Shown here: positions 5,373 to 23,369 of the stretch, one piece after another
How the letters are laid out: each line of letters begins with the position of its first letter
Position numbering within the stretch: the first letter of the stretch is position 1
NCBI RefSeq assembly: GCF_001050155.1
Contig: NZ_LFVY01000025.1
Span: 1-55,517 of the forward strand
DNA: 55,517 bases
Direction: 5' to 3'
Source: Nitratireductor soli
GTDB lineage: Bacteria; Pseudomonadota; Alphaproteobacteria; Rhizobiales; Rhizobiaceae
Position numbers and translations under genes: made by a program
Notes under the pieces: model-generated
Told to the model about the DNA's origin: nothing
What the model saw: the letters and a program-made list of their open reading frames with translations, nothing else
The model's database searches: none

Positions 5373-5852
<480 letters not shown>

Positions 5853-5866
5853 GGGAGGGCACGAAG

Positions 5867-8230: not shown

Positions 8231-8241
8231 GGAGGCAGGCC

Positions 8242-9184: not shown

Positions 9185-9931
9185 TCAGATTTTCGCGTCG
9201 CGTTCGGAGCGCCGGGTCTTCACCAGCCCCTCGTAATCGAGCGCTCGCGAGTAATCGAGGATATGCACCTTCATCAGCGCGATCAGGCCATTGGCGTCGC
9301 CTGCTTTCAGCTTGTCGAGCAGCTCGTCATGTTCCTCGACGATCAGCCGCAGGTCCTTCTGCAGCGTCGACAGGCCGAAGATGATGGTCAGCTGTCGCGA
9401 CAGCGGCTCCCACATATGCAGCAGGACATCATTGCCGGACAGGCGGCATAGGGTGCGGTGGAAATCGGTGTCGAGCCGGGCGACACCGTAGGAATCGCCC
9501 CGTTCGGCGGCGGCATGCAGTTCCCGCACCACCGCCTCCAGCGGCTCGAGGATGCTCGGGTCCGCCTCCCGCGCCGCGAGCACCTCCTGCGCCGCCAGGG
9601 TTTCCAGCGCCGTGCGGACCTTGAGGATCTTCTCCAGCCGGTCGATGCTGACATCCATCAGGCGCATGCCGCGATAGCGCGCATTCACCACGATGCCCTG
9701 GCTTTCCAGGATGCGCAGGGCTTCGCGCACCGGCACGCGGCTGACATTCAGCGAGCGGGCGACCTCCGCTTCCACCACGCGGTCGCCGGGCAGAAACACG
9801 CCTGTCGCCGTGGCTTCCACGATCGCATCGACGACCTGATCGACCAGCGTCCTGGTTTCGAGCGGCAGAAGCTTCGGCAATGTGCCCTTTCTCGGGCTGG
9901 CTTGGTCTGCGGACATGTTCCTTGATCTCAT
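9185..9931 (-). CDS. GntR-family transcriptional regulator, FCD (FadR) subfamily
   Basis: The 248-residue protein has an N-terminal winged helix (about 20-90, with VARSLNVSRVPVREALRILE as the recognition region) and a C-terminal FCD ligand domain (about 95-230). The FCD metal-site pattern DxxFH is visible in RLDTDFHRTLCRLSGN. Such regulators sense carboxylates or sugar acids and usually repress catabolic operons. The gene is divergent from an oligopeptide-type binding protein. The shared intergenic region holds a 20-bp perfect palindrome (9954-9973), which also occurs at two other promoters of this cluster, so autoregulation and control of the entire block are likely. ATG at 9916 is an alternative start. 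Confidence 0.92.
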   Translation of the reverse strand: MRSRNMSADQASPRKGTLPKLLPLETRTLVDQVVDAIVEATATGVFLPGDRVVEAEVARSLNVSRVPVREALRILESQGIVVNARYRGMRLMDVSIDRLEKILKVRTALETLAAQEVLAAREADPSILEPLEAVVRELHAAAERGDSYGVARLDTDFHRTLCRLSGNDVLLHMWEPLSRQLTIIFGLSTLQKDLRLIVEEHDELLDKLKAGDANGLIALMKVHILDYSRALDYEGLVKTRRSERDAKI

Positions 9932-9953
9932 GCGTCTTGATTGCCTCGTTAAG

Positions 9954-9973
9954 ATCGTATACTATTATACGAT
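9954..9973. promoter_or_regulatory. GntR/FCD operator, site 1
   Basis: ATCGTATACTATTATACGAT has 8-bp perfect arms around CTAT. It sits between the gntR start (9931, minus strand) and the binding-protein gene (10066, plus strand). The same element recurs at 17473-17492 and 23350-23369 and nowhere else that I could find. Palindromic TNGTATAC-like sites are typical of FCD regulators. Confidence 0.8.
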
Positions 9974-10021
9974 AAGTGCAATGCCTCGCCTGTTCGTTTG
10001 GCGCGCGAAACGCCGGTAGCC

Positions 10022-10035
10022 TGCACTTAAGTGCA
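10022..10035. promoter_or_regulatory. 14-bp perfect palindrome in the binding-protein leader
   Basis: TGCACTTAAGTGCA is a perfect palindrome 30 bp before the ATG of the binding-protein gene. A half-site AAGTGCA also occurs at 9974-9980, immediately after the GntR operator. It may be a second operator or a small leader hairpin. The protein that would bind is unknown. Confidence 0.45.
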
Positions 10036-10065
10036 AGAAACTTCAAATACAGAGGGAGACGAAAA

Positions 10066-11634
10066 ATGGCAAAGACCAGCAGGCTGGGGAACGCCTGGCA
10101 TGTCTGCTTGGCCGCCGCCGTGGCAGCCTTTATCGGCCTGTCGCCGATGGCGGGCCAGGCGCAGACCGCCGGTGGCGATCTCGTCGTCGTGCAGAGCTCG
10201 AACCCGCCGAGCCTCGACGCGATGGTGACCTCGTCGCAGGCATCGCGCAACATCACCATGAACATCTACGAGCCGCTGTTCGGCTTCAGCGAGAACATCC
10301 GGCCGATTCCCATACTGGCCGAGAGCGTCGAGATTTCCGAAGACGGCAAATCCTACCGCATCCCGCTGCGCAAGGGCGTGAAGTTCCATAACGGCAAGGA
10401 GATGACCGCCGAGGACGTCAAGGCGTCGCTCGAACGCTACCAGAAGCATGGTGCGACCCAGACCATGCTGAAGCCGGTGGAAAGCATCGAGATCACCGGT
10501 CCCCACGAGGTGACGCTGAAGCTCACGGAGTCGACGCCCACCTTCCTCGAAGCCTTCGCCTCGCCGCGCGCGCCGGCGGTCATCATTCCGGCCGAAGAGG
10601 CGGGCAAGGGCCCGAGCGAGATCGAGTTCATCGGCACCGGCCCCTATAAGTTCGTCGAATATGTGCCCGACAGCCATGTGAAGCTGGCGCGCTTCGAGGA
10701 CTACAGCGCCGACGAAAGCCACGAAGGCATCGATGGCTTCGGCGGCAAGAAGACGGCCTATCTCGACACCGTCACCTTCCGGGTCATCCCTGAGCCAGGT
10801 GCGGCGGTTGCGGCGCTCGAAACGGGTGAAGTGCAGCTTCTCGAACAGCTTCCCGTCCCGACGGCAAGGCGTCTTGCCTCCAACGCCGACATCGCGGTGT
10901 ATGAGAACATGCCCTGGGCGTTCCTCACCTTCATCTTCAACATGAAGGAAGCGCCCGGCGACAATCCGAAGTTCCGCGAGGCCGTGCAGGTCGCGCTGAA
11001 CGACGAGGAGGTCATGGCGATCGCCACGGAAGGACTGTTCCACCTCTACCACGGCTGGATGTATGAGGGGTCGACCTACGACGCCGGCGACATCGGCAAG
11101 GATCACTACAACCTGGCCGACGCCGACCGCGCGAAGGCGCTGCTGAAGGAGGCTGGCTACAACAACGAGCCCTTCTCGATCCTCACCGATTCGACCATTC
11201 CCGAGCACGGCAAGGCAGCCGTCGTCATCGCCGAGCAGTTGAAGGCGGTCGGCATCAATGCCGTCATCAACCAGGTCGACTGGCCGACGGCGCTGAACAT
11301 CCGCCTGCAGGACCAGGGCTGGAACGGCTGGACGCTGATGATGGGCATCGAGCCCTATCTCGGCCCGGCGGCCCTGATCTCCACGCTGACCGGCGCGGCT
11401 CCGCATTTCCGCGCCAATGACGAGCAGCTCGACGCGCTCTATCAGGAGCTGATCTCGACCGACAGCGAGGAAGGCCGCAAGGAGGTCTTCGCCAGGATAC
11501 AGAAGCGGCTCTACGAGTTCTTCGGCATCATCAAGCTCGGCGAAACCGGGCTGATGCAGGCGGCGCGCGCCAATGTGAAGGGGTTCAAGCCCTTCCGTTT
11601 CCCGCGCGTCTACGATGTTTGGCTCGAAAAATAG
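10066..11634 (+). CDS. ABC transporter substrate-binding protein, oligopeptide (family 5, DppA-like)
   Basis: The 522-residue protein has a signal peptide cleaved near GQA|QT (residue 32) and the family-5 binding-protein architecture: SNPPSLDAM at the start of the mature part, NIYEPLFGFSENI, LRKGVKFHNGKEMTAEDVKAS, and TGPYKFVEYVPDSHVKLARFEDY. Family-5 proteins bind peptides, opines, nickel chelates or sugars. The ATG follows GAGGGAGACGAAAA. Its permeases follow at 11797 and 12734, and the ATPases are probably 22281-23342 and 21308-22294 at the far end of the cluster, under the same operator. The catabolic neighbours suggest a ligand with an amide bond and a sugar-acid-like part, which is an inference. 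Confidence 0.92.
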   Translation: MAKTSRLGNAWHVCLAAAVAAFIGLSPMAGQAQTAGGDLVVVQSSNPPSLDAMVTSSQASRNITMNIYEPLFGFSENIRPIPILAESVEISEDGKSYRIPLRKGVKFHNGKEMTAEDVKASLERYQKHGATQTMLKPVESIEITGPHEVTLKLTESTPTFLEAFASPRAPAVIIPAEEAGKGPSEIEFIGTGPYKFVEYVPDSHVKLARFEDYSADESHEGIDGFGGKKTAYLDTVTFRVIPEPGAAVAALETGEVQLLEQLPVPTARRLASNADIAVYENMPWAFLTFIFNMKEAPGDNPKFREAVQVALNDEEVMAIATEGLFHLYHGWMYEGSTYDAGDIGKDHYNLADADRAKALLKEAGYNNEPFSILTDSTIPEHGKAAVVIAEQLKAVGINAVINQVDWPTALNIRLQDQGWNGWTLMMGIEPYLGPAALISTLTGAAPHFRANDEQLDALYQELISTDSEEGRKEVFARIQKRLYEFFGIIKLGETGLMQAARANVKGFKPFRFPRVYDVWLEK

Positions 11635-11654
11635 CAGCGTTGTGAGTAGCTTGT

Positions 11655-11680
11655 CCGGGGGCGGGGTCCGCCGCTCCCGG
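11655..11680 (+). terminator. GC-rich hairpin between binding-protein and permease genes
   Basis: CCGGG-GGCGG pairs with CCGCC-CCCGG through a 3-base bulge (10 paired bases, loop GGT). No T-run follows, so it is more likely a partial terminator or 3' stabiliser that lets the binding protein be made in excess over the permeases. Confidence 0.45.
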
Positions 11681-11686
11681 GCAATT

Positions 11687-11760
11687 AGAGCATTTTGCAG
11701 TCAGGTGGAATCACCTGACGTCCGCATAAATGCGGAAAACAAAGAGATAGACCGGTTCGG
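11687..11760 (+). repeat. Triple-hairpin intergenic repeat, copy 2 (third hairpin degraded)
   Basis: AGAGCATTTTGCAG leads into the perfect stem GTCAGGTG/CACCTGAC (loop GAAT), then CCGCAT/ATGCGG (loop AA). The third stem keeps only its left arm GACCGGTTC. It lies inside a probable operon between the binding-protein gene and the first permease, unlike copies 1 and 3 at convergent gene ends. Confidence 0.85.
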
Positions 11761-11796
11761 TTGTCGGGCCGTTTCTCAAATCCTGGAGCGCGGATA

Positions 11797-12744
11797 TTGA
11801 TTGGGTTCCTGGCACGACGATTGCTGAGCGCCTTGCCGGTGCTGTTCGTCGTCTCGCTCGTCAGTTTCATCATCATCGCCATCGTGCCGGGCGATGTCAC
11901 GGCGGAGATTGCCGGCAGCGATTCGACCGAGGCGCAACGCATGGAAATCCGCGAGCGTCTGGGGCTCGACCGTCCGATGGTCGAGCAGGCCGTGCGCTGG
12001 TATGGCCGCCTGCTGCAGGGAGACCTCGGCGATTCCTATCTGCTCAACATGTCGGTCACCGATGCCGTTCTGGAGCGGCTTCCGGTCACGCTTTCTCTGG
12101 CGGCGATCGCTCTGGTTCTTGCTGTGGTGCTGGGCGTTCTGCTCGGCATCGTCGCGGCGATCCGCCACGACAGCTGGCTCGACCAGGGGTCGATGTCGCT
12201 CGCCCTGTTCGGGCTTTCCGTGCCCGATTTCTGGTTCGCGCTGATCTTGATCTCGGTGTTTTCCGTCGGGCTCGGCTGGCTGCCGACCGGCGGCTACGTG
12301 CCGGCAAGCGAAAGCTTCCTTGGCTGGGCGCGCTCGATGACGCTGCCGGCGCTGGCGCTGGCCATCACGCAGATGGGTGTGGTCGCGCGCATGACGCGCT
12401 CGGCCATGCTCGACGTGATGAGCCAGGACTATATCCGCACCGCGCGGGCCAAGGGCTTGCGCCGCCACTCGATCATCTTCAAGCATGCGCTGCGCAATGC
12501 GCTGGTTCCCATCGTCACCGTCATCGGCGTGATGACGGGCGTGCTCCTCGGCGGGGCGGTGGTGATCGAATCCGTCTTCTCGCTTCCCGGCGTCGGGCGG
12601 CTGATCATCGGCGCCATCCAGCGGCGCGATTATCCCATCATCCAGGGTGGCCTGCTGATCACCGCGGCCACCTTCGTCTTCGTCAACATCCTGGTCGACC
12701 TCGCCTATGGTTGGCTGGACCCGAGAGTGCGCGATGGCCGTTGA
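11797..12744 (+). CDS. Oligopeptide-type ABC transporter permease (DppB-like)
   Basis: This 315-residue inner-membrane permease begins with the typical FLARRLLSALPVLFVVS signal-anchor helix and has six predicted helices. The cytoplasmic EAA loop is YIRTARAKGLRRHSIIFKHALRNAL (positions about 220-245). I chose the TTG at 11797 because GGAG lies about 9 bases upstream and the product then starts like DppB. An in-frame TTG at 11761 would start inside repeat copy 2. It partners with the next gene, which it overlaps by 11 bp. Confidence 0.9.
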   Translation: MIGFLARRLLSALPVLFVVSLVSFIIIAIVPGDVTAEIAGSDSTEAQRMEIRERLGLDRPMVEQAVRWYGRLLQGDLGDSYLLNMSVTDAVLERLPVTLSLAAIALVLAVVLGVLLGIVAAIRHDSWLDQGSMSLALFGLSVPDFWFALILISVFSVGLGWLPTGGYVPASESFLGWARSMTLPALALAITQMGVVARMTRSAMLDVMSQDYIRTARAKGLRRHSIIFKHALRNALVPIVTVIGVMTGVLLGGAVVIESVFSLPGVGRLIIGAIQRRDYPIIQGGLLITAATFVFVNILVDLAYGWLDPRVRDGR

Positions 12745-13645
12745 AATCGATAGCGAAACCCTCTCCCTGCGTCGGGAGATCGCCCGCGCGCGCCGACGCG
12801 GCTGGATGCTGTTCCTGCGCCGGCTCGGCGCGCACCGATCCTTCCGTGTCGGCTTCGCGCTGTTTTCCCTGATCGTCCTCTTGGCGGTCTTCGCCGATCT
12901 GATCGCCCCTTACGACCCCAACAAGAATGACTACCGCAGCCTGCTTGCCGCACCCTCCATGCAACACTGGTTCGGCACGGACGGTTTCGGCCGCGACATA
13001 TTGAGCCGGGTCATCCACGGCACGCGCGTCTCGCTCGGCATCGGCATTTCCGTTGTCGTCATGACCGGCGTTTTCGGCGTCTTCCTCGGCATGCTTGCCG
13101 GCTATGTGCGCTGGCTGGACAATGCGCTGATGCGGATCATGGACGGGTTGATGGCCTTTCCGGGCGTGCTGCTTGCCATCGCGCTCGCCGCCGCGCTGGG
13201 CCCTTCGGCCCTCAACGCGGTGATCGCGCTCACCATCACCTTCACCCCACGCACGGCGCGCGTGGTGCGCTCCAGCGTGCTGGTCATCCGTGAACTGCCC
13301 TATGTGGAAGCGGCCATGGCGGTCGGTGCGGGGCATGCGCGCATCATCTTCCGCTACATCCTCGCCAACGCCCTGTCGCCGCTGATCGTCCAGCTCACCT
13401 TCGTCTTCGCCGTGTCGATCCTGGCCGAGGCGATCCTCAGCTTTCTCGGCGTCGGCCCGCCGCCGCCGGCGCCCTCGCTCGGCAACATCATCGCCGAAGG
13501 CCGCAACTATCTGCAGGACGCAAGCTGGATCGCCTTTTTCCCGGGCATGGCGATCGCTGCCGCCGTGCTCGGCCTGAACCTGATGGGCGACGGCCTGCGC
13601 GACATAACGGACCCGCGCCTGAGCGCCAAGCGCGACGCGGGTTGA
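12734..13645 (+). CDS. Oligopeptide-type ABC transporter permease (DppC-like)
   Basis: The 303-residue second permease has the DppC N-terminal helix (FRVGFALFSLIVLLAVFADLIAPY), then HWFGTDGFGRDILSRVIHG, a hallmark of this family, and an EAA loop around PYVEAAMAVGAGHARIIF. ILSFLGVGPPPPAPSLGN near the C-terminus is also characteristic. The ATG at 12734 overlaps the previous gene by 11 bp, indicating translational coupling. An SDR gene follows after 10 bp, so import and metabolism are probably co-transcribed. Confidence 0.92.
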   Translation: MAVEIDSETLSLRREIARARRRGWMLFLRRLGAHRSFRVGFALFSLIVLLAVFADLIAPYDPNKNDYRSLLAAPSMQHWFGTDGFGRDILSRVIHGTRVSLGIGISVVVMTGVFGVFLGMLAGYVRWLDNALMRIMDGLMAFPGVLLAIALAAALGPSALNAVIALTITFTPRTARVVRSSVLVIRELPYVEAAMAVGAGHARIIFRYILANALSPLIVQLTFVFAVSILAEAILSFLGVGPPPPAPSLGNIIAEGRNYLQDASWIAFFPGMAIAAAVLGLNLMGDGLRDITDPRLSAKRDAG

Positions 13646-13655
13646 AGGAGGAAGA

Positions 13656-14390
13656 ATGGACAGGTTTCTGAACGGCAGGACGGTGCTTGTCACCGCGGCG
13701 GGGCAAGGCATCGGCAGGGCAAGCGCCATGGCCTTCGCCCGGGCCGGCGCCAAGGTGGTCGCCACCGATATCGATCAGGCGCTGCTTGCAGGCCTCAGCG
13801 GACAGCGCAACATTTCCACACGCCCGCTCGACGTGCTCGACGATGCCGCCGTGCGTGAGACCGCTCAGGCGGTCGGCCGCGTCGATGTCCTGTTCAATTG
13901 CGCCGGCGTCGTGCATTCCGGCTCCATCCTCGACATGGCGGACAAGGATCTGGATTTCGCCTTCGATCTCAACGTCAAGGGCATGGTGCGCATGATCCGG
14001 GCCTTCCTTCCGGCGATGCTGGAGCACGGCGAGGGGTGCATCATCAACATGGCGTCGGTCGTCTCCAGTCTGAAAGGCGCGCCGAACCGCTGCGCATACG
14101 CCACCACCAAGGCCGCGGTGATCGGCCTGACCAAGGCCGTGGCGGCTGATTTCGTCGCACAGGGCATCCGCTGCAACGCCATCTGTCCGGGCACGGTTGA
14201 AAGCCCTTCCCTCCAGGAGCGCATGCGGGCGCAGGGCGATTACGACGCGGCCCGCAAGGCCTTCGTCGCCCGCCAGCCAATGGGGCGCCTCGGCACGCCG
14301 GACGAGATCGCCGCGCTCGCCGTTCACCTGGCTGGCGCCACCTACACGACGGGTCAGGCCTATGCGATCGATGGCGGCTGGTCGATCTGA
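13656..14390 (+). CDS. Short-chain dehydrogenase/reductase
   Basis: The 244-residue classical SDR has the nucleotide motif TAAGQGIG (13-20), NCAGVV in the NNAG position, the catalytic Ser region MASVVSS (about 132-136) and YATTK near 148. GGAGGAAGA precedes the ATG. The tail AYAIDGGWSI is the usual substrate-loop/C-terminal motif. It is the last gene of the binding-protein/permease operon and probably oxidises a hydroxyl group of the imported compound or its product. This overall type is common among sugar-acid and hydroxy-acid dehydrogenases such as 2-keto-3-deoxy-L-fuconate or 3-hydroxybutyrate dehydrogenase. The substrate is unknown. Confidence 0.88.
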   Translation: MDRFLNGRTVLVTAAGQGIGRASAMAFARAGAKVVATDIDQALLAGLSGQRNISTRPLDVLDDAAVRETAQAVGRVDVLFNCAGVVHSGSILDMADKDLDFAFDLNVKGMVRMIRAFLPAMLEHGEGCIINMASVVSSLKGAPNRCAYATTKAAVIGLTKAVAADFVAQGIRCNAICPGTVESPSLQERMRAQGDYDAARKAFVARQPMGRLGTPDEIAALAVHLAGATYTTGQAYAIDGGWSI

Positions 14391-14399
14391 AACGAAGCG

Positions 14400-14425
14400 G
14401 CCGAAGCCGGCGAACCCGCTTCGGC
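14400..14425 (+). terminator. 8-bp hairpin after the SDR gene
   Basis: GCCGAAGC pairs perfectly with GCTTCGGC over a 10-base loop, starting 10 bp after the SDR stop and directly before repeat copy 3. There is no T-run. Together with the repeat it probably ends transcription between the convergent genes. Confidence 0.4.
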
Positions 14426-14428
14426 GCT

Positions 14429-14530
14429 AGAGCATTTTGCAGTCAGGTGGAATCACCTGACGTCCGCATAAATTCGGAAAAACAACGAGATAGACCGGTT
14501 CAGTGTTTCAACGAAACGATGAACCGGTCT
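14429..14530 (+). repeat. Triple-hairpin intergenic repeat, copy 3 (complete)
   Basis: Stem 1 GTCAGGTG/CACCTGAC, stem 2 CCGCATAAATTCGG (one mismatch), stem 3 AGACCGGTTCA (14492-14502) with TGAACCGGTCT (14520-14530), plus an inner TTTC/GAAA. Compared with copy 1, stem 3 carries a C-G to T-A paired change. It separates the convergent SDR and FAH genes. Confidence 0.88.
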
Positions 14531-14538
14531 GGGTGTTG

Positions 14539-15384
14539 TCAGTTGTCGGCGGCGACGGGCTGGCTCTGCTCGCCCAGCCCTTCGATCCCCAGGCGCATGG
14601 TCTGGCCGGGGCGCAGATAGACGGGCGGTTTCATGCCCATGCCGACGCCGGGCGGCGTGCCGGTTGAAATGATATCGCCGGCCTGCAGGCTCATGAAGCG
14701 GCTGACATAGCTGACCAGTGCATCGACGCCGAACACCATCGTCCTGGTCGAGCCGTCCTGATAGCGCTTGCCGTCGACCTCCAGCCACATGCCGAGATTC
14801 TGCGGATCGGCGATCTCGTCGGCGGTGACCAGCCAGGGGCCGATCGGCCCGAACGTGTCGCAGCCCTTGCCCTTGTCCCAGGTGCCGCCACGCTCGATCT
14901 GGAATTCGCGTTCGGAAACGTCGTTGATCACGCAATAGCCGGCGACATGCGCGCGGGCGTCCTTCTCGGCGATGTATTTGCCCGGCTTGCCGATCACCAC
15001 GCCGAGTTCCACTTCCCAGTCCGTCTTCTGCGAATCGCGCGGGATGAGCACCGTGTCGTTCGGCCCGCAGATGGCGCTTGTCGCCTTCATGAAGATGATC
15101 GGCTCCTTCGGCACGGGCTGGCCGGCCTCGGCGGCATGGTCGGCATAATTGAGGCCGATGCAGATGAACTTGCCCACCTGGCCGACGCAGGGACCGTAGC
15201 GCGCCGCCTCGCCGATCACCGGCAGGCTCGCCGGATCGACCTTGCGCAGGGCGTCGAGCCCTTGCGGCGTCAGCGTTTCGCCGGCGATGTCGGAGACGAT
15301 TCCCGACAGGTCGCGAAGGGTGCCGTCCGTGTGGACGAGGCCGGGTTTTTCCTGGCCGGGCTGGCCGATGCGTACGAGTTTCAT
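14539..15384 (-). CDS. FAH-family hydrolase (2,4-diketo-3-deoxy sugar acid hydrolase type)
   Basis: This 281-residue member of the fumarylacetoacetate hydrolase family has the core FICIGLNYADHA, the metal-binding ExE of DWEVELGVVIG, GYCVINDVSEREFQ, the substrate loop DTFGPIGPW and GDIISTGTPPGVG. The family cleaves or hydrates diketo acids. In the known L-fucose pathway of Xanthomonas an enolase-type dehydratase, an SDR and a FAH protein act in turn and yield pyruvate plus lactate. The same three gene types lie together here on one strand. The ATG at 15384 is preceded by AAGAAGGA at proper distance. The ATG two codons upstream is too close to that site. The exact substrate is inferred only as a class. 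Confidence 0.88.
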   Translation of the reverse strand: MKLVRIGQPGQEKPGLVHTDGTLRDLSGIVSDIAGETLTPQGLDALRKVDPASLPVIGEAARYGPCVGQVGKFICIGLNYADHAAEAGQPVPKEPIIFMKATSAICGPNDTVLIPRDSQKTDWEVELGVVIGKPGKYIAEKDARAHVAGYCVINDVSEREFQIERGGTWDKGKGCDTFGPIGPWLVTADEIADPQNLGMWLEVDGKRYQDGSTRTMVFGVDALVSYVSRFMSLQAGDIISTGTPPGVGMGMKPPVYLRPGQTMRLGIEGLGEQSQPVAADN

Positions 15385-15426
15385 GAACATTCCTTCTTCT
15401 TGTGGCGGCTGGGCCGTGAAACCGCG

Positions 15427-16173
15427 TTAATAGGTGGCTCGACCGCCGGAGAGATCGAAAACCGCACCGGTGGTGAAGGCGTTTTCGGCGCTGACCAGCC
15501 AGGCGATCATCGCCGCGGCTTCGCCGACCTCCAGGAATCGCCCGCGCGGAATGCGCGACAGCATATAGTCGATATGCTGTTGTGACATCTGGTCGAAGAT
15601 GCGCGTGCGTGCGGCCGCCGGCGTCACGCAATTGACGGCGATGTTCTGGTCCGCCAGTTCCTTGCCGAGCGATTTGGTGAGCGCGATGACGCCCGCCTTC
15701 GAGGCGGAATAGGCGGCGGCGTTCGGATTGCCTTCCTTGCCGGCGATCGATGCGACGTTGACGATGCGGCCATAGCCGCGCTCAGCCATGCCCGGCACCA
15801 CCGCCTTGCAGCAATGGAACACGCCGGTGAGGTTGATGTCGATGATGCGCCGCCATTCCTCGACCGGATAGTCGGCGACCGTCGCGTTGGCGCCGGCGAT
15901 GCCGGCATTGGCGACCAGGATGTCGATCCCGCCAAGGGCCTCCTCCGTTTGCCGGGCAGCGTCCCGCACGGCATCGAAATCGGTCTGCTCGACGGCGATC
16001 GACATCGCCTGCACGCCCATCTCGGCGGCGGATGTTCGCGCCAGCGTGTCGTCGCGGTCCCAGATCGCCACGCGGGCGCCCGACGCGATCAGCCGTTCGG
16101 CCACGGCGCGCCCGATGCCCTGCGCGCCGCCGGTCACGACCGCATTGCGGCCCTTGAGATCGATCTCGTTCAT
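15427..16173 (-). CDS. Short-chain dehydrogenase, 2-keto-3-deoxy sugar acid type
   Basis: The 248-residue classical SDR has TGGAQGIG (14-21), NAGIAG, catalytic Ser142 (VASIAGKEG), Tyr155 and Lys159 (YSASK). GKEGNPNAAAYSASKAGVI strongly resembles dehydrogenases of 2-keto-3-deoxy-L-fuconate and L-rhamnose/fucose acid pathways. The ATG is preceded by AAGGAAATGCA. It lies between the FAH hydrolase and an enolase-superfamily gene on the same strand. The order dehydratase, dehydrogenase, hydrolase matches the direction of the proposed pathway. Confidence 0.9.
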   Translation of the reverse strand: MNEIDLKGRNAVVTGGAQGIGRAVAERLIASGARVAIWDRDDTLARTSAAEMGVQAMSIAVEQTDFDAVRDAARQTEEALGGIDILVANAGIAGANATVADYPVEEWRRIIDINLTGVFHCCKAVVPGMAERGYGRIVNVASIAGKEGNPNAAAYSASKAGVIALTKSLGKELADQNIAVNCVTPAAARTRIFDQMSQQHIDYMLSRIPRGRFLEVGEAAAMIAWLVSAENAFTTGAVFDLSGGRATY

Positions 16174-16210
16174 TGCATTTCCTTCTGTGGAAAAGAGTGA
16201 GCCATGGCGT

Positions 16211-17410
16211 TCAGCCGGCGAAAAAGCGTTTCGCGTCGGGCGTGTAGCGGGCGACGTGATCCGGGTCGAGTTCGATGCCGAGGCCTGGCAGGTCGGGAAT
16301 GGCGAGACAGCCGTCGGCGTCGAGGCTGAAGGGCGCCCGCGTCAGCCGGTCGACATAGGCGCTGCCGCCGATGTACTCGACCAGGTCGCAGTCGGAAATC
16401 GCCGCCGCCAGTTGCAGGTCGGCGGCAAGGCCGAGCGCCGTGTTCCAGCCGTGGCCGACATAGCGCACGCCGAATTCCTGCGCCATCCAGGCGATGCGGC
16501 GCTGCTCGCTGAGGCCGCCGACCTTGGTCACGTCGGGCTGCACGATGTCGAATGCGCCGCGCACCAGCCATGGCGTGTAGGATTGCCGGCGCGTCAGCAC
16601 CTCGCCGCCGGCGATGGCGACCGGGCTTGCCCTGCGCAGCGCGATGAAATCGTCGATGGCGTCCGGCTTGAGCGGTTCCTCGAACCAGCCGACCCCGTAA
16701 TCCTTCAGCATCTGCGCCGTGTTGAGCGCCCATTTGAGGCCGTTCGGCCAGAAGGCGTCGCTGGCGCCGGCATCGACAAACAGGTGCGCATCGTCGCCGA
16801 TTGCATCGCGGGCCGCCCGCACGATGGCCTCGTCGAGTTTCGCGCTGTCGCGCCGCCCAAACGGACCCCAGCCGATCTTGAAGGCGCGAAACCCCTGTTC
16901 GTAGTGGGGCGCGATCACCTCGGCCATGCGCTCCGGCCGGTCCATCAGCAGCGAGCAATAGGGTTTTGCCCGGTCGCGATAGCGCCCGCCGAGCAGGCGG
17001 CCGACCGACAGGCCTGTCGCCTTGCCCAGTATGTCCCAAAGCGCGATGTCGATGCCGCTGATCGCATGCGTCAGGCTGCCGCCGCGTCCCATCCAGAACG
17101 TGTTCTGGTGCAGCTTCTCGCTGACCCTGTCCGGTTCCAGCGCATTCTCGCCAATGAGCAGGGGTTCGAGCACGCCGGCGGCGGCTTCGACCAGCCGGCC
17201 ATTGGTGAACGCGCTGCCGTAGCCGGAAATCCCCGCATCGGTGTGGATGGCGATCAGCGCGTGGACGGAATCCTTCTCGTCGATCTCATGGCTCCACCCT
17301 CCTTGCGGGCTTTCGCCCTGCAGGGGCGCGACACGAATCGCCGTGATGCGGATCGGCATGAGAGCTTTCGCCTGCTTTGTCGGTTCGGCCCCGTCGATGC
17401 GACCGTGCAT
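16211..17410 (-). CDS. Enolase-superfamily (mandelate racemase-like) dehydratase or cycloisomerase A
   Basis: The 399-residue protein has a capping N-domain and a TIM barrel. Visible catalytic positions are Lys178 (FKIGWGPFG), Asp213 (FVDAG), Glu245 (WFEEP), Glu270 (AGGEV), Asp293 (QPDVTKVGG) and His320 (GHGWN). The Asp-His dyad is that of the mandelate racemase group, but the usual KxK is KxG and the second metal-site region reads DAG instead of DxN. This makes L-fuconate or gluconate dehydratase chemistry uncertain. ATG 17410 follows GGAGAAAGACC. The start at 17437 lacks a site. It is divergent from the deacylase gene across GntR operator 2. Confidence 0.88.
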   Translation of the reverse strand: MHGRIDGAEPTKQAKALMPIRITAIRVAPLQGESPQGGWSHEIDEKDSVHALIAIHTDAGISGYGSAFTNGRLVEAAAGVLEPLLIGENALEPDRVSEKLHQNTFWMGRGGSLTHAISGIDIALWDILGKATGLSVGRLLGGRYRDRAKPYCSLLMDRPERMAEVIAPHYEQGFRAFKIGWGPFGRRDSAKLDEAIVRAARDAIGDDAHLFVDAGASDAFWPNGLKWALNTAQMLKDYGVGWFEEPLKPDAIDDFIALRRASPVAIAGGEVLTRRQSYTPWLVRGAFDIVQPDVTKVGGLSEQRRIAWMAQEFGVRYVGHGWNTALGLAADLQLAAAISDCDLVEYIGGSAYVDRLTRAPFSLDADGCLAIPDLPGLGIELDPDHVARYTPDAKRFFAG

Positions 17411-17472
17411 GGTCTTTCTCCATGAAGAATTACACAATGTTTGGAGCCGGCTGCCCCTTGACAGAAATCAAT

Positions 17473-17492
17473 ATAGTATACAATCATACGAA
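17473..17492. promoter_or_regulatory. GntR/FCD operator, site 2
   Basis: ATAGTATACAATCATACGAA matches the operator pattern ATCGTATA-N4-YATACGAT with one mismatch in each arm. It lies in the 111-bp divergent promoter region between enolase A (minus) and the M14-type deacylase (plus), where one repressor could control both directions. Confidence 0.72.
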
Positions 17493-17521
17493 ACAAGCTC
17501 TCTTCTGGATAGGAACGCGGC

Positions 17522-18562
17522 ATGAGCGTCACAGCGGCCAAAAGCCGGATCGTCTGCACCATCGATTTCGACAGGAATGGCCGCCAGGCAGGCTATGCGC
17601 GCGCGCCTTTGTCGCGCAACAATTCCGGCTGGGGCACGGTCGAGATTCCCATTGTCGTCGTCAAGAACGGCAGTGGGCCGACGGTTCTCCTGACCGGTGG
17701 CGTGCACGGCGACGAGTATGAGGGACCGATCGCCATCTCCCGGCTGGCGCGGAGCCTGAAGCCGGAGGAGGTGCAGGGCCGCGTCATCATGATGCCGGCG
17801 GTCAATATTCCGGCGATCATGGCCGACACGCGGCTCTCGCCCATCGATGGCTGGGACATCAACCGCTGCTTTCCGGGCAATCCGAAAGGCACGTTCAGCC
17901 AGATGCTTGCCCACTTTCTCGACAGCGTGATCCTGCCCATGGCCGACATCTCGGTCGACATGCACACGGCCGGCCACTCCTTCGATTCGGCACTGTCGAC
18001 CAACATGCATCATGTCGCCGACCCGGCGATCCGCGAAAGGACCATCGCCGCCGCTGCGGCATTCGGCGCGCCGTACAATGTCGTTTTCGGCGGCGTGGAT
18101 GAGGATTCCACATTCACCTCCTGCGTCGAACGGCGTGGCATCGTCTCGCTCGGCACGGAGCTCGGCGGCTGGGGCCGGGTCAACATCGAGGGCGTGCGCA
18201 TCGGCCGCCGCGGCGTCGACAACATCCTGAAGCATATGGGTGTCATCGAGGGCGAGCCCGAGACCGGCCAGCGCGACGGCTCGCCGAAGACGCGGCACAT
18301 GATGGTGCGCGATCCGCAATCCTATGTCTTTTCGCCGAGGGGCGGGCTGTTCGAGCCGACGCATTATGTCGGCGAGGAGGTGCGCGCAGGCGCCGTCGCC
18401 GGCTACCTGCATTTCATCGAGGATGTCGATTCCGAGCCGCTGATGCTGACCTACCAGAAGGACGGCATCGTCTGGTTCGGCGCCGGCCCTGGCCGGGTGG
18501 CGCGCGGCGACGCGGTGGCCATCATCATGGAAGACTATGCCGACGATTGGTCCGGCCACTGA
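17522..18562 (+). CDS. M14-family N-acyl amino acid deacylase (AstE/aspartoacylase/DoeB-like)
   Basis: The 346-residue zinc hydrolase has the M14 ligands His62 and Glu65 in GGVHGDEYEG and a third ligand near His148 in VDMHTAGHS, plus the Arg region DINRCFPGN that binds the substrate carboxylate. Relatives remove acyl groups from amino acids (succinylglutamate desuccinylase, aspartoacylase, N-acetyl-diaminobutyrate deacetylase DoeB). The length and GWDINRCFPG are close to DoeB, but no ectoine genes are present. The ATG is preceded by AGGAACGCGGC. It begins a three-gene operon with an MlrC peptidase and a second enolase, directly downstream of GntR operator 2. Hydrolysis of an amide in the imported compound is the likely role. 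Confidence 0.85.
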   Translation: MSVTAAKSRIVCTIDFDRNGRQAGYARAPLSRNNSGWGTVEIPIVVVKNGSGPTVLLTGGVHGDEYEGPIAISRLARSLKPEEVQGRVIMMPAVNIPAIMADTRLSPIDGWDINRCFPGNPKGTFSQMLAHFLDSVILPMADISVDMHTAGHSFDSALSTNMHHVADPAIRERTIAAAAAFGAPYNVVFGGVDEDSTFTSCVERRGIVSLGTELGGWGRVNIEGVRIGRRGVDNILKHMGVIEGEPETGQRDGSPKTRHMMVRDPQSYVFSPRGGLFEPTHYVGEEVRAGAVAGYLHFIEDVDSEPLMLTYQKDGIVWFGAGPGRVARGDAVAIIMEDYADDWSGH

Positions 18563-18595
18563 GCCGGACGCTTGATCCCCCAGTAAGGACCAACC

Positions 18596-20086
18596 ATGCC
18601 GACTGTTCTGATTGTGGAATGCATGCAGGAGATCTCCTCCTTCAATCCCGTTCCCTCCGAATATGAGAACTTCGAAGTCGAGCGCGGCGAGGCATTGCTC
18701 GGCCACCGCGGCAAGAACACTGCCATAGGCGGCGCGCTGTCCGTCTTCGAAGCCGACGCCGGCATCCGCCTTGTGCCGACCATCGCCGCCCGCGCCGGCA
18801 GTGCCGGTCTGCTCTCCAGCCAGGGCTGGCAGCAATTGTCGGCGGAACTGCTCGACGCGGTAGCGGCGCGCCTGGATGGCGTCGACGGCATCTATGTCTC
18901 GTTGCATGGGGCAATGGGCGCCGATGGCGAGCTTGACCCGGAGGGCCATCTGCTGAGCGAGATCCGCCACATGGCCGGCCCGTCCGTGCCGATCGTCATA
19001 TCGCTCGACCTGCACGGCATCCTGACCGACCGCATGATCCGCCAGGTGGACGGCATGGCCATCTACCACACCTATCCGCATGTGGATTTTGCCGACACCG
19101 GCGCGCGGGCAGCGCGGCTTCTGCTTGGCCTCCTGTCGGGCGGCGTCGCGCCGACCGTGGCGCGGGTGGTCATCCCGGCGCTCGTGCGTGGCGACGAACT
19201 GATCACCCGCACCGGCTGCTATGGCGACCTGATCGGCGAGTGTCGGCGGCTCGAGCGCGAGGGAACCGCGCTTTCGGCCGGCATCATGATCGGCAATCCA
19301 TTCACCGACGTGCCCGAACTCTGCAGCCAGGTGATCGTCGTCACCGATGGCGACGCGGCGGCGGCGCAGCGCGAGGCCGAGCGGCTGGCGGCGGAATTCT
19401 GGCCGATGCGTCACCGCATGCAGGGCAAGCTGATGCCGCTCGACCGCGCCATCGCCCAGGCGCGCACCATCGATGGCCCGGTCTGCTTCACCGATGCGGC
19501 CGATGCCACCTCGTCCGGCGCCACCGGCGATTCCAACGCGATCCTCCATGCGCTGCGCGACAAGGGGTATCCGAAGCGCGTCCTGGCGCAGATCGTCGAT
19601 CCGGAGGCGGCCGCCGCCGCCCACCGGGCCGGCGTCGGGGCGCGTGTGGAGGTCACGCTGGGCGGGGCGATGGACCCGGCGCGCTTCACGCCGATGCCGG
19701 TCAAGGCGCACATCAAGCTCCTGTCCGACGGCTCGGGGCGGCTGGAAACGATGAAGCTGGTGCTCGATGCGGGGCCGACGGCGGTGCTCGAATACGACAA
19801 TGTCACGGTGGTCGTGATGAGCCGTTCGGTCAGTCTGTTCGACCGGGCCATGTATTTCGCCAATGGGCTGAACCCGGCCGATTTCGACCTGATCGTCGTC
19901 AAGTCGCCGCATACGGAATACGCCATGTACGACCAATGGGTGGAGAAGAATTTCAACATCGACGCGCCCGGCGCCACTTCCGCCGACATCCGCCAGCTCG
20001 GGCACACGATCTGTGCCCGGCCGATGTTCCCGCTCGACGACATCGCCGATTTCGCGCCGAAGGCAAGCCTCTATCGCCGCACCTGA
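18596..20086 (+). CDS. M81-family metallopeptidase, MlrC-like
   Basis: The 496-residue protein matches the MlrC (microcystin degradation protein) family over its whole length. Probable zinc ligands are Asp138 and His140 (SLDLHG) and His158/His162 (YHTYPHVD). The GDNAPGG-like region of the second domain is represented by SSGATGDSNAILHAL near 304-318. MlrC cleaves linear peptide intermediates of microcystin, but many bacterial members sit beside Dpp-type transporters and have unknown amide substrates. The ATG follows AAGGACCAACC. It lies 33 bp after the deacylase and 21 bp before enolase B. I take it as the second hydrolytic step or an alternative amidase. Confidence 0.9.
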   Translation: MPTVLIVECMQEISSFNPVPSEYENFEVERGEALLGHRGKNTAIGGALSVFEADAGIRLVPTIAARAGSAGLLSSQGWQQLSAELLDAVAARLDGVDGIYVSLHGAMGADGELDPEGHLLSEIRHMAGPSVPIVISLDLHGILTDRMIRQVDGMAIYHTYPHVDFADTGARAARLLLGLLSGGVAPTVARVVIPALVRGDELITRTGCYGDLIGECRRLEREGTALSAGIMIGNPFTDVPELCSQVIVVTDGDAAAAQREAERLAAEFWPMRHRMQGKLMPLDRAIAQARTIDGPVCFTDAADATSSGATGDSNAILHALRDKGYPKRVLAQIVDPEAAAAAHRAGVGARVEVTLGGAMDPARFTPMPVKAHIKLLSDGSGRLETMKLVLDAGPTAVLEYDNVTVVVMSRSVSLFDRAMYFANGLNPADFDLIVVKSPHTEYAMYDQWVEKNFNIDAPGATSADIRQLGHTICARPMFPLDDIADFAPKASLYRRT

Positions 20087-20107
20087 ACACGGAGCCTGGA
20101 ACACAGA

Positions 20108-21283
20108 ATGAAGATCGAGGCCGTCGACCTCTTTTACCTTGCAATGCCTGAAATCACCGACGAGGCGGACGGCAGCCAGGACGCGCTCCTGGTCCGTGTC
20201 AGCGCGGGCGGCCTTGTCGGCTGGGGCGAATGCGAGGCGGCGCCGCTGCCGTCCATAGCCGCCTTTGTGTGCCCCAAATCCCATGGCGTGTGCCGGCCAG
20301 TCGGCGCCTCGGTGCTCGGCCAGGTGTTGGAAGGGCCTGAGGACATCGCACGTATAGCCGCCCTGGTCGGCTACAATTCCATGGATCTCCTGCAGGCGCC
20401 GCACACCTTCTCCGGCATCGAAATGGCGTTGTGGGACCTTTTGGGCAAGAAGCGGCAGGAACCGGCCTGGCGCCTGCTTGGCTACAAGACCGCGCACCGC
20501 AAGACGCCCTATGCCTCGCTGCTGTTCGGCGACACGCCGCAGATTACCCTCCACCGTGCCCGCAAGGCGCGGCAGGACGGCTTCTCGGCGGCCAAGTTCG
20601 GCTGGGGGCCGGTGGGCCGCGGCGATGTGAAGGCTGATGCCGATCACTTCGTCGCGGCCCGTGAGGGCCTGGGCCGCGATGCCGAACTGATGGTCGATGT
20701 CGGGCAGATCTTCGTTGAGGATGTCGAGGCCGCGGCAGCCCGGCTGAAACCGCTCGACGAGGCTGGCGTCCTGTGGATCGAGGAGCCGTTCCACGGCGGT
20801 GCGCTGGAAGCTTATGCGGCGCTGTCGGCGCGTGGTGCGCGCGTCCGCGTCGCCGGCGGAGAATCGGCGCACAACGTGCACATGGCGCAGCACCTCATCG
20901 TCTATGGCGGGATCGGCTTCGTGCAGATCGACTGCGGCCGCATCGGCGGCATCGGCCCGGCCAGGAAGGTTGCCGATCTGGCGGTGGCGCGCGGCGTTAC
21001 CTATGTCAACCACACCTTCACCTCGCATCTGGCGTTGTCGGCGTCCCTGCAGCCCTTCGCCGGATTGTCGGAAAGCCGCATCTGCGAGTATCCGGCCGAT
21101 CCGAAGGCATTGGCGGCGGCGATCACCGAAAATCACATCGTGCCCGGCGCCGATGGCCTGATCGCCGCACCCGATGCGCCAGGCCTCGGCATGGACGTCG
21201 ATCTTGAAAGCCTGAAACCCTATCTGCTCGATACGGAGATCCGCGTCGGCGGCCAGGTGCTCTACCGCACGCCCGCCATCTGA
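20108..21283 (+). CDS. Enolase-superfamily (mandelate racemase-like) dehydratase or cycloisomerase B
   Basis: The 391-residue protein is a second, diverged member. Lys163 (KFGWGPVG), Asp197 (MVDVG), Glu226 (WIEEP), Glu252 (AGGES), Asp275 (QIDCGRIGG) and His302 (VNHTFTSH) are in the same places as in enolase A. It shares with A the unusual KxGWGPxG loop and the DxG metal segment, so the two form one subfamily with different pocket residues. Its N-domain contains a Cys-bearing insertion around FVCPKSHGVC. It is the last gene of the deacylase operon and ends 24 bp from the convergent ATPase gene. Two related enzymes may act on epimers or successive intermediates. Confidence 0.88.
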   Translation: MKIEAVDLFYLAMPEITDEADGSQDALLVRVSAGGLVGWGECEAAPLPSIAAFVCPKSHGVCRPVGASVLGQVLEGPEDIARIAALVGYNSMDLLQAPHTFSGIEMALWDLLGKKRQEPAWRLLGYKTAHRKTPYASLLFGDTPQITLHRARKARQDGFSAAKFGWGPVGRGDVKADADHFVAAREGLGRDAELMVDVGQIFVEDVEAAAARLKPLDEAGVLWIEEPFHGGALEAYAALSARGARVRVAGGESAHNVHMAQHLIVYGGIGFVQIDCGRIGGIGPARKVADLAVARGVTYVNHTFTSHLALSASLQPFAGLSESRICEYPADPKALAAAITENHIVPGADGLIAAPDAPGLGMDVDLESLKPYLLDTEIRVGGQVLYRTPAI

Positions 21284-21307
21284 CCCAGCGTTGCCGTCAG
21301 GCTGCGC

Positions 21308-22294
21308 TCAAGCGCCCATCGTGCCGGCGAAATGGCAGGCCGCCAGATGCGTGCCGTCGTTCATGGCGGCAAGCGGCGGCTGCTCCTTCCGGCAAATCTC
21401 CTGCGCCATCGGGCAGCGCGTGTGGAACCGGCAGCCCGAGGGCGGATTGGAGGGGCTCGGCAGGTCACCCTTGATCGCCGAATAGCGCGTCTTGCCGCGG
21501 TTGCGCGATGGCGCCGAGCGCAGCAGCGCCACCGTGTAGGGGTGGGCGGGGGCGTCGAAGATCGCCTTCTTGCTGCCCGTCTCCACGACCTTGCCCAGAT
21601 ACATCACCATCACCCGGTCGGAGATATGGCGGATGACGCCGAGATCGTGGCTGATGAACAGATAGGTGAGGCCCAGTTCCTTCTTCAGGTCCTGCAGCAG
21701 GTTGAGGATCTGTGCCTGGATCGACACGTCGAGCGCCGAGGCGGCCTCATCGCAGACGATGAAGCGCGGATTGAGCGCCAGGGCGCGGGCGATGCAGATG
21801 CGCTGCCGCTGCCCGCCGGAGAATTCATGCGGGAAGCGTCCGGCATGATAGCTGGCCAGCCCGACCAGGCTGAGCAGTTCGGCAAGCCGCCTTTGCTGCT
21901 CGACCGCATCGCCGACGCCGTGAATGACCAGCGGCTCCATGATCAGTTCGCCGACGCTCATGCGCGGATTGAGGGCGCCGAGCGGGTCCTGGAAGATGAT
22001 CTGCAGGTCGCGGCGCATGGCGCGCATTTGCGCCGCATCGAGGGCGCGCAGATCGACCCCGTCGAATTCGACCTTGCCGGCGCTGGGCTCGATGAGCCGC
22101 AGCACGAGGCGCCCGACCGTGGTCTTGCCGCACCCGCTTTCGCCAACCAGCCCCAGCGTCTCGCCGGCGTTGACGGTGAAGGAAACGTCGTCCACCGCGC
22201 GGACGGACCGTGCCTCAGAGAAAAGTCCGCCGCGCGTCTCGAAACGCTTTTCCAGGGCCTCGACGCGCAACAGGGGCGTGCTAGCTGCGTTCAT
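21308..22294 (-). CDS. Oligopeptide-type ABC transporter ATP-binding protein (DppF-like)
   Basis: This 328-residue ATPase has Walker A GESGCGKT, signature FSGGQRQR and Walker B FIVCDEAASALD, followed by FISHDLGVIRHISDRVMVMYLGKVVE. The C-terminal Cys-rich oligopeptide-transporter extension is CRFHTRCPMAQEIC, known in the family to bind an iron-sulfur cluster in some members. ATG 22294 has GGAGGGCACCA upstream and overlaps the preceding gene by 14 bp. Longer forms read through that gene in another frame and are rejected. It serves the permeases at 11797-13645. Confidence 0.92.
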   Translation of the reverse strand: MNAASTPLLRVEALEKRFETRGGLFSEARSVRAVDDVSFTVNAGETLGLVGESGCGKTTVGRLVLRLIEPSAGKVEFDGVDLRALDAAQMRAMRRDLQIIFQDPLGALNPRMSVGELIMEPLVIHGVGDAVEQQRRLAELLSLVGLASYHAGRFPHEFSGGQRQRICIARALALNPRFIVCDEAASALDVSIQAQILNLLQDLKKELGLTYLFISHDLGVIRHISDRVMVMYLGKVVETGSKKAIFDAPAHPYTVALLRSAPSRNRGKTRYSAIKGDLPSPSNPPSGCRFHTRCPMAQEICRKEQPPLAAMNDGTHLAACHFAGTMGA

Positions 22295-23342
22295 TGGTGC
22301 CCTCCGGGAAAACATAGCCGGTGTTGCGGATGCAGGCGGCCAGGTGGTCATCGCCACAGGGCATGAGGACGGGGCGGCCCTGGCGGCATGGCTCCTTCGC
22401 CTGCGCGCAGCGCGGCTCGAAACGGCAGCCCGGAGGCAGGTTGAACGGCGGCGGCACGGTGCCGGGAATGGCATACAGCCGCTCGGTGTCCGTCTCGCTC
22501 GAGGGAATGCTGGCCAGAAGCCCTTCGGTGTAGGGATGGCCGGGCCGCGTGAATGCCTGTTCGGCGCTGGCATCCTCCACCACCTGCCCGGCATACATGA
22601 TCATCACCCGGTCGGTGAAGGACGACACGACGCCGAGATCGTGGGTGATCATGATCGTCCCCATGCGGTATTCCTCCTGAAGATCCTGCAGCAATTCGAG
22701 GATCTGCGCCTGGATGGTCACGTCGAGGGCGGTGGTCGGTTCGTCGGCGATCAAGACGCGCGGATTGCAGGCGAGCGCCATGGCGATCATCGCCCGCTGG
22801 CGCATGCCGCCGGACATCTGGTGGGGGTACTCGTCGATGCGCTGGGCGGCAGCCGGAATGCCGACCCGCTTCAACGCGTCGAGGGCGCGCTGCCTCGCCA
22901 GCCTGCGGCTTACCCCGTCATGCCGGCGGATCGTCTCGACGATCTGCTCGCCGACGGTGAGCACCGGGTTCAAGGCCGTCATGGGCTCCTGGAAGATCAT
23001 GGCGATGGCCGCGCCGCGCAAAGCCTCGTAGCGCCGCTCGCTGGCGGTCAGCAGATCCTCCCCCATGAAGCGCAGCCGCGCGGCACTGATCCGCGCATGC
23101 GATGGCAGAAGGCGCATCAGGGCAAGCGCCGAAACACTCTTGCCGCTGCCCGATTCTCCGACAATGCCGACCACCTCGCCCTCGCGCAGGGTGAAGGAGA
23201 CGCCATCGACCACCGGCAGGGAGCCGAACGAGATGCGCAGGTCGCGCACCTCGAGCAGCGGTGGCTCCGTGTCTGGCGCAGCCTTCGCGCCCTCGCGATG
23301 GGTCATCATCCCTGTATCGTGCAGCTTCTGATCATCAACCAT
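22281..23342 (-). CDS. Oligopeptide-type ABC transporter ATP-binding protein (DppD-like)
   Basis: The 353-residue ATPase has Walker A GESGSGKS, signature MSGGMRQR, Walker [13 protein letters not shown] and the His switch ITHDLGVV. The C-terminal Cys motif [14 protein letters not shown] matches DppD/OppD. It starts 8 bp from GntR operator 3. ATG 23342 has no clear ribosome site. ATG codons at 23309 and 23306 are alternatives preceded by AGGG, though rather close. The two ATPase genes form their own operon, separated from the permeases by the catabolic genes but tied to them by the operator. Confidence 0.9.
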
Positions 23343-23349
23343 GTGATAA

Positions 23350-23369
23350 ATCGTATACTATCATACGAT
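23350..23369. promoter_or_regulatory. GntR/FCD operator, site 3
   Basis: ATCGTATACTATCATACGAT differs from operator 1 by a single base (C for T). It lies immediately upstream of the first ATPase gene (minus strand) and 203 bp before the TauE-like gene, which may or may not be co-regulated. Confidence 0.8.

Follow-up and report, generated by a model that had tools for sequence, protein, structure and literature searches.

What do thirteen neighbouring genes of Nitratireductor soli do, and do they work together at all? The genes lie at positions 9,185 to 23,342 of the DNA analysed here (55,517 nucleotides, contig NZ_LFVY01000025.1 of assembly GCF_001050155.1; hereafter the window), and they encode a GntR regulator, a Dpp-type importer, two putative amide hydrolases (M14 and M81), two enzymes of the mandelate racemase (MR) group (MR1 and MR2), two SDR-family dehydrogenases (SDR1 and SDR2) and a FAH-family hydrolase (FAH). 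A preliminary description, made from the letters of the sequence, had proposed that they form a catabolic pathway for an amide- or peptide-linked sugar acid. Its gene list was correct, as Pfam and NCBIfam calls placed every family that it had named where it had put it, and its boundaries agree with those of the regulon described below, except that the third operator falls just outside them (Table 1). On the sequence evidence, the 13 genes are a real catabolic regulon.

A shared operator and a recurring gene set

The palindrome TCGTATACNATNATACGA is present in all three gaps in which the predicted transcription units of the cluster begin, and these gaps are the start regions of five such units. 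When up to two mismatches are allowed, its 16-base core is found in the window at three places only, all in the cluster (one of them on both strands), where 0.05 would be expected. With at most one mismatch, the 5,116,425-base genome contains exactly three matches, which are the three cluster sites, and none to the reversed pattern. All three operators overlap sigma-70-like matches, in a weak scan that found 5 of these against 2.3 expected in total; such an overlap fits the expectation for a repressor site. Since one operator, unique in the genome, stands at all three start regions, the cluster as a whole has the appearance of a single GntR regulon, which the GntR protein would regulate via the palindrome. 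Two trios of genes within it look like operons because they have one strand and short gaps in common, namely MR1-SDR2-FAH (37 and 36 nucleotides) and M14-M81-MR2 (33 and 21 nucleotides), and SDR2 is probably co-transcribed with MR1 and FAH. The regulator, the operator and the prediction for the last reaction give ligand screens a basis on which to look for the substrate.

An alignment scan of 84,980 species genomes with MR2 gave 394 relatives, the best 80 of which were kept and correspond to 79 distinct loci; these are the nearest homologues rather than a random sample, many of them end at contig edges, and the counts are lower bounds. Gene presence was counted within about 10 kb by identity thresholds (at least 60% for SDR1 and at least 50% for SDR2). 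MR1 and M81 are each present at 46 of the 79 loci, the binding protein at 35, GntR at 32 and M14 at 30; MR1 and M81 occur together at 36 loci, and both occur with M14 at 29. If the M81-bearing loci are limited to the 25 that span 20 kb or more, MR1 is present at 24, SDR2 at six and FAH at four. Gene order and strand vary among lineages, which argues for selection on the gene set. The MR2 tree, of 76 rows, shows 10 changes of M81 context, compared with 22.9 in shuffles. We also made a phylogenetic profile of 385 genomes of the class, that of N. soli among them, with strict E-values, in which MR2 is found in nine genomes, M81 in seven, MR1 in six and M14 in four. All six MR1 genomes also carry MR2 and M81. 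Four of the six have the three genes on separate contigs, a profile link without close neighbourhood; these four belong to one family, and their MR2 is just 58-61% identical. The gene set recurs in distant bacteria, and judged by sequence its arrangement is more than chance.

The operator recurs along with the genes. Scanned as a fixed pattern with at most one substitution, it is found at 26 of the 46 MR2 loci that have M81, as against one of the 33 others. Nitratireductor, Martelella, Tianweitania, Oceanibium and Cereibacter sphaeroides have three copies each, and the copies in relatives stand at corresponding gene starts. Sites are present in 12 of 13 other genomes, with none for the reversed control. 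Among the 21 matches listed for 13 genomes, some of which count a single palindrome or overlapping copies once per strand, 20 lie inside the cluster, as assigned by hand from coordinates. The remaining match, in Chelatococcus asaccharovorans (L156 1501-1518), is some 30 bp ahead of a further gene for an AstE/AspA hydrolase, and it was the single extra site in a genome-wide search of the 13 genomes for members that would complete the pathway.

Plasmid pA of C. sphaeroides 2.4.1 has counterparts of 12 of the 13 genes, with identities of 66-81%, in a cluster to which its record assigns no function. It shares the three operator copies, but its ATPase genes are on the other strand and its FAH is only a remnant, seen as tblastn pieces at the matching place between SDR1 and SDR2 (L104 12373-12837). 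In Martelella, just 53 nucleotides separate SDR1 and SDR2. The closest solved structures by far are 2HZG for MR2 (5.2e-200) and 3CDX for M14 (1.1e-193), both of which we take to be R. sphaeroides targets. We found no open papers on 2HZG or 3SJN and only two, both unrelated, for 3CDX. The cluster links 2HZG and 3CDX, for which our search of open papers gave no assigned function, to one testable catabolic regulon that a laboratory organism also carries.

Enzymes and proposed route

The reading that we tentatively prefer, and that may well be correct, is that a single GntR-repressed regulon serves the uptake of a sugar-acid amide, its hydrolysis, and a dehydratase-SDR-FAH route in two branches. 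Sequence shows directly that the operator sites are shared, that the set of genes recurs, and that the catalytic residues and the pattern of SDR1 are kept; we infer that this GntR protein is the regulator, and likewise every reaction, the amide, the two-branch logic and which acid is used. The FCD-type GntR protein would repress a catabolic regulon containing its own gene. The Dpp-type ABC importer would take in a small polar conjugate that carries, in amide linkage, a polyhydroxy acid (probably 6-deoxy or pentonic), and the AstE/AspA-type deacylase and the M81 hydrolase would cleave amide bonds inside the cell, freeing the acid. MR1 and MR2, as one-base enzymes, would remove water from two acids of different configuration and so form 2-keto-3-deoxy acids, which SDR1, of the fuconate type, and SDR2, for which the rhamnonate type is proposed, would oxidise at C4. 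Because this oxidation would erase the C4 difference, both branches would converge on one 2,4-diketo-3-deoxy acid, and FAH would split it into pyruvate and a 2-hydroxy acid. A more specific version, which we consider somewhat unlikely, is a two-branch amide-conjugate route in which amidases replace the sugar dehydrogenase and lactonase, the dehydratases act on C4-epimeric acids, the 4-dehydrogenases have opposite stereo-preference, and one hydrolase serves both branches; if true, it would mean that natural amides of deoxysugar acids form a widespread class that has gone unrecognised.

The residues of SDR1 speak for the oxidation step. According to PMC11199699, Arg148, Thr183, Arg192 and Arg214 are the defining residues of L-2-keto-3-deoxyfuconate 4-dehydrogenase (L-KDFDH), and the fuconate and rhamnonate branches lose the chirality at C4 and meet in the same 2,4-diketo acid. 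Our comparison used the numbered L-KDFDH residues given in that paper rather than the full sequence of the enzyme. Anchored at R145 = R148, SDR1 has S134, Y148, K152, T180 and R189 at equal spacing (constant offset of -3), and its spacing fits L-KDFDH D41, I42, V89, S137, Y151, K155, T183, L189 and R192, with Val at the position of I184. By eye, FVARQ past a short deletion fits F211-x-x-R214-Q215 (R206 = R214), and GGW is present at the C-terminus; when the offset is kept fixed, F211, Q215 and W252 have no match and the Arg at 214 is a different Arg. SDR1 thus has the R-T-R-R residues and the Ser-Tyr-Lys triad of a type 1 L-KDFDH, with R206 placed by eye. The R-T-R part was found in five of 40 compared SDRs, all five of them SDR1 orthologues. 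SDR1 would therefore be L-KDFDH-like, in a subfamily to which BDH2 also belongs. SDR2 adjoins FAH at all five FAH-bearing loci, and its C-terminal GGRATY may be compatible with the Arg247-type rhamnonate enzyme described in PMC11199699. FAH scores 430.9 bits against NF053535 (2,4-didehydro-3-deoxy-L-rhamnonate hydrolase; cut-off 500), its nearest family by far, and its best structure match is PDB 8gsr (6.5e-93).

When aligned with E. coli DgoD and RhmD, MR1 and MR2 keep the Asp/Glu/Glu metal ligands and the His-Asp dyad, residues that presumably have the same catalytic roles as in DgoD, and both have K-x-G where two-base enzymes have K-x-K. This is the pattern of one-base members of the MR subgroup, which have no second Lys, and the site is predicted to be of the type expected of acid-sugar dehydratases. 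A mandelate-racemase-type two-base enzyme (K-x-K plus His-Asp) was accordingly rejected for both, and the K-x-G also disfavours a racemase or cycloisomerase. The best dehydratase models are galactonate dehydratase for MR1 (178.5 of 311 bits) and gluconate/galactonate dehydratase for MR2 (100.4 of 750 bits); in the NCBIfam scan, the fuconate dehydratase model matched neither.

These steps recall the non-phosphorylating L-fucose and L-rhamnose routes, FucC-FucF-FucG and LRA3-LRA5-LRA6. The cluster shares with them an MR-superfamily dehydratase-like enzyme and a FAH hydrolase, with MR1-SDR2-FAH in one predicted operon, and SDR1 has the R-T-R-R pattern of FucF. On the other hand, the cluster has no mutarotase, lactonase or sugar dehydrogenase assigned as such (no lactonase family was found among the 13 genes by Pfam or NCBIfam, which sets it apart from an L-fucose cluster), no cut-off classes its dehydratases as FucD or RhmD, and it adds two amide hydrolases, a Dpp importer, and two genes each for MR and SDR enzymes. 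In its downstream chemistry the pathway is a variation on a known route, with an uncharacterised entry step. Our search of open papers on the family combinations in question found no pathway or substrate assignment, in keeping with the preliminary description, which knew of no characterised pathway with this combination.

Both hydrolases keep the catalytic residues expected of them, which bears out the view that the cluster encodes two putative amide hydrolases. E12, H104, D138, H140 and H162 of M81 align with E56, H150, D184, H186 and H208 of the microcystin-peptide hydrolase MlrC (the 7ylq chain index plus 17 gives the numbering of the paper at all five places), and mutating any of these nearly abolishes MlrC activity, as described in PMC9506587. 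Together with the domains PF07364 and PF07171, the five residues mark M81 as a metallopeptidase of its family. M81 scores only 133.6 bits against the MlrC cut-off of 999, however, and Pfam and NCBIfam detected no other Mlr family among the 13 genes; with M81 so far under this cut-off, microcystin degradation was rejected. The cluster ties M81 enzymes, which the open papers found treat mainly in connection with microcystin (a few others concern genomes, transcriptomes and plants), to a catabolic regulon. M14 matches DoeB (6twm, 1.6e-68), the N-acetyl-L-2,4-diaminobutyrate deacetylase of ectoine catabolism, with which it shares its family, and it keeps HGDEYEG, the third His region and TELGG, motifs whose zinc roles we assume to be the same in both proteins. 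Its 285 bits do not reach the TIGR02994 cut-off for DoeB (402.7), and no other ectoine-catabolism family was found among the 13 genes with Pfam or NCBIfam. It is plausible that the substrate enters as an amide of a sugar acid; if so, a common class of environmental compounds has been overlooked.

The loci that lack M81 are instructive in this respect. A relative of the SMP-30 lactonase is present at eight of the 33 MR2 loci without M81 and at none of the 46 with it (Fisher p = 0.0005, uncorrected for kinship), so that lactonase and amidases look like alternative routes of acid release. Six of the eight are from Ancylobacter, with an importer that has an SBP_bac_8 binding protein (one tested) and a gene that looks by eye like an aldose epimerase and has no Pfam match; at another (L062), the relative matches at 32% and lies some 5 kb off. 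The same lactonase context is also seen in genomes G432 and G450. Further amide-hydrolase families occur at single loci near MR2 or a related MR gene, namely GGT, AAT, ceramidase-like, DUF2817 and a double M14.

Related hydrolases also appear in other settings. Loci L136 and L137 have two AstE/AspA-type hydrolases and a Dpp importer, and L136 has in addition an MR enzyme (32% to MR2), GGT-family proteins and a beta-keto acid cleavage enzyme, which suggests a parallel amidase-MR system. In L122, L126 and L128, from one family, a relative of M81 (60-61%) lies beside a different MR (30-32% to MR1) and Dpp-type importer genes, with a gene in L122 and L128 that by eye resembles an FMN-dependent hydroxy-acid dehydrogenase. 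In the N. soli genome itself (G000), four of the seven M81 genes lie within 15 kb on contig C11 (43517-57785, locus L024), with Dpp-type importer genes among them and none of the MR_MLE genes of the genome inside.

The preliminary description had taken the peptide-type importer and the two amidases as signs that the acid enters joined to an amine or amino acid; a Dpp-type importer, however, implies no peptide. Asp436 and Arg383 of DppA are important for dipeptide binding, as echoed by the title of 8z1z. In an alignment that is gapped there, none of 27 homologues of the binding protein has Asp in the Asp436 column, and the Arg383 column (precursor numbering) holds R in 17, P in six and K in four. 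The binding protein, which does not combine the two DppA residues and lacks Asp436, is probably not an ordinary dipeptide binder. Its predicted structure (mean pLDDT, the predicted local distance difference test, of 87.2) is uninformative as a ligand clue, with fold matches that mix peptide, opine, nickel and sialic-acid family 5 binders. Importers found with MR1/MR2 elsewhere include those with SBP_bac_3 (amino-acid type) and SBP_bac_8 (PotD-like) proteins.

Points against the proposed route and other explanations

Several observations weigh against the reading that we prefer. FAH, which would catalyse the last step, is present at just five of the 79 MR2 loci (one further copy is truncated where its contig stops), and in view of this and of the remnant in C. 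sphaeroides 2.4.1 we rejected it as a core gene; it is an accessory, dispensable gene. SDR1 and SDR2 were counted at two and 10 of the 79 loci, many of them cut by contig ends. With these three genes so rare, most relatives must complete the route elsewhere or otherwise. The dehydratase-SDR-FAH sequence of the earlier proposal is well supported here by the SDR1 residues, the nearest family of FAH and the MR active sites, although FAH is an accessory gene. MR1 and MR2 fall below every NCBIfam dehydratase cut-off (fuconate, rhamnonate and galactonate equivalogs), and neither has an equivalent of His185, the second His of DgoD. At two loci, a Dpp importer accompanies MR1 and MR2, but M81 and M14 are both missing (L041 and L054, the latter ending just after MR2). 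In the 385-genome profile, three MR2 genomes lack MR1 and M81 at the cut-offs used (G187, G292 and G370), one M81 genome lacks MR1 and MR2, and M14 does not track MR2, which is absent from two of the four M14 genomes. None of the 27 operator-bearing loci is beta-proteobacterial, so that the operator is not universal. Finally, both L-KDFDH and BDH2 use cis-4-hydroxy-L-proline, according to PMC11199699.

It is unlikely that the substrate is instead an N-acyl amino-deoxy sugar acid, from which M14 would remove the acyl group and in which M81 would open a lactam or second amide, with the rest as in our preferred reading. That DoeB, an N-acetyl deacetylase, is the nearest enzyme of known function to M14 would fit, as would the SBP_bac_3 and SBP_bac_8 importers that accompany MR1/MR2 elsewhere. 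The score of M14 is nonetheless short of the DoeB cut-off, and Pfam and NCBIfam detected no aminotransferase, ammonia-lyase or deaminase family among the 13 genes.

Catabolism of hydroxyproline peptides is very unlikely. The importer and peptidases would then supply cis-4-hydroxy-L-proline, SDR1 would oxidise it as BDH2 does, and the MR enzymes would epimerise or dehydrate proline derivatives. The substrate shared by L-KDFDH and BDH2, the peptide-type importer and two peptidase-family hydrolases agree with this, but the MR enzymes have K-x-G rather than the two-base K-x-K, MR2 scores 50.2 bits with the hydroxyproline dehydratase model against 100.4 with its best dehydratase model, the binding protein does not keep Asp436 of DppA, and FAH and SDR2 would be left without a role.

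Just as improbable is the uptake and breakdown of a compound of the opine or Amadori kind, where the link between sugar and amino acid would be a C-N amine instead of an amide. Secondary amines are not a bond that hydrolases of the M14 and M81 families would be expected to cut. The importers that accompany MR1/MR2 do resemble in type those for mannityl opines, and the agropinic-acid-binding AgaA (6hlx) matches the binding protein at 1e-32, rank 2 by sequence and rank 6 by fold; peptide, nickel and sialic-acid binders are among the fold ranks too, however, so this match is unspecific. The last alternative, in which a sugar-acid operon merely adjoins a separate one for peptide scavenging, can hardly be right: although the same families are also scattered in the genome (seven M81, eight MR above the cut-off and 37 SBP5 genes), a chance neighbourhood is rejected by the genome-unique operator shared by all three start regions, and the mixed gene set recurs with shuffled order and strand.

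Layout of the cluster and flanking genes

The features of the cluster are given in Table 1, in which the starts of MR1 (17359) and DppF (22294) are refined, likely positions.

Table 1. Genes and operators of the predicted GntR regulon, with positions in the window.
Feature	Position	Strand	Basis
GntR/FCD regulator, predicted repressor	9185..9931	-	PF07729 6.5e-26, PF00392 4e-12; operator beside own gene
Operator 1, TCGTATACTATTATACGA	9955..9972		between GntR and importer operon; overlaps promoter-like match
Family 5 solute-binding protein (SBP_bac_5)	10066..11634	+	PF00496 6.5e-77
DppB-type permease	11761..12744	+	Pfam/NCBIfam
DppC-type permease	12707..13645	+	Pfam/NCBIfam
SDR1, L-2-keto-3-deoxyfuconate 4-dehydrogenase/BDH2-like	13656..14390	+	residue pattern of L-KDFDH
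FAH-family hydrolase, nearest to 2,4-diketo-3-deoxy-L-rhamnonate hydrolase	14539..15390	-	NF053535; PDB 8gsr
SDR2, proposed second keto-acid 4-dehydrogenase	15427..16173	-	PF00106
MR1, enolase-superfamily (mandelate racemase subgroup) dehydratase-like	16211..17359	-	PF13378 1.4e-56; K-x-G, His-Asp
Operator 2, TAGTATACAATCATACGA	17474..17491		between MR1 and M14; overlaps TTGACA-type promoter-like match
M14, AstE/AspA-family (M14-type) zinc deacylase, DoeB-like	17522..18562	+	PF24827 3.5e-36; PDB 3cdx
M81 (MlrC-like) metallo-hydrolase	18596..20086	+	PF07364 2.4e-86; PF07171
MR2, second enolase-superfamily dehydratase-like enzyme	20108..21283	+	PF13378 1.3e-46; PDB 2hzg
DppF-type ATPase (oligo_HPY)	21308..22294	-	Pfam/NCBIfam
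DppD-type ATPase (oligo_HPY)	22281..23342	-	Pfam/NCBIfam
Operator 3, TCGTATACTATCATACGA	23351..23368		8 nucleotides upstream of DppD; overlaps promoter-like match

Genes for the large and medium subunits of a molybdopterin hydroxylase (5504-9039) end just upstream of the regulon, with no copy of the operator, and genes for a TauE/SafE-type exporter and a D-amino acid dehydrogenase (23573-25924) follow directly downstream. Membership of the regulon is disfavoured for the upstream molybdenum hydroxylase and for the downstream TauE, DadA, SDR and UgpC genes, as the window has no further operator. The flanking genes are not regular in the neighbourhood tables of M81 clusters, for which part of the loci were mapped. 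On plasmid pA of C. sphaeroides, a TauE protein (52% identical) is encoded about 4 kb beyond the cluster.

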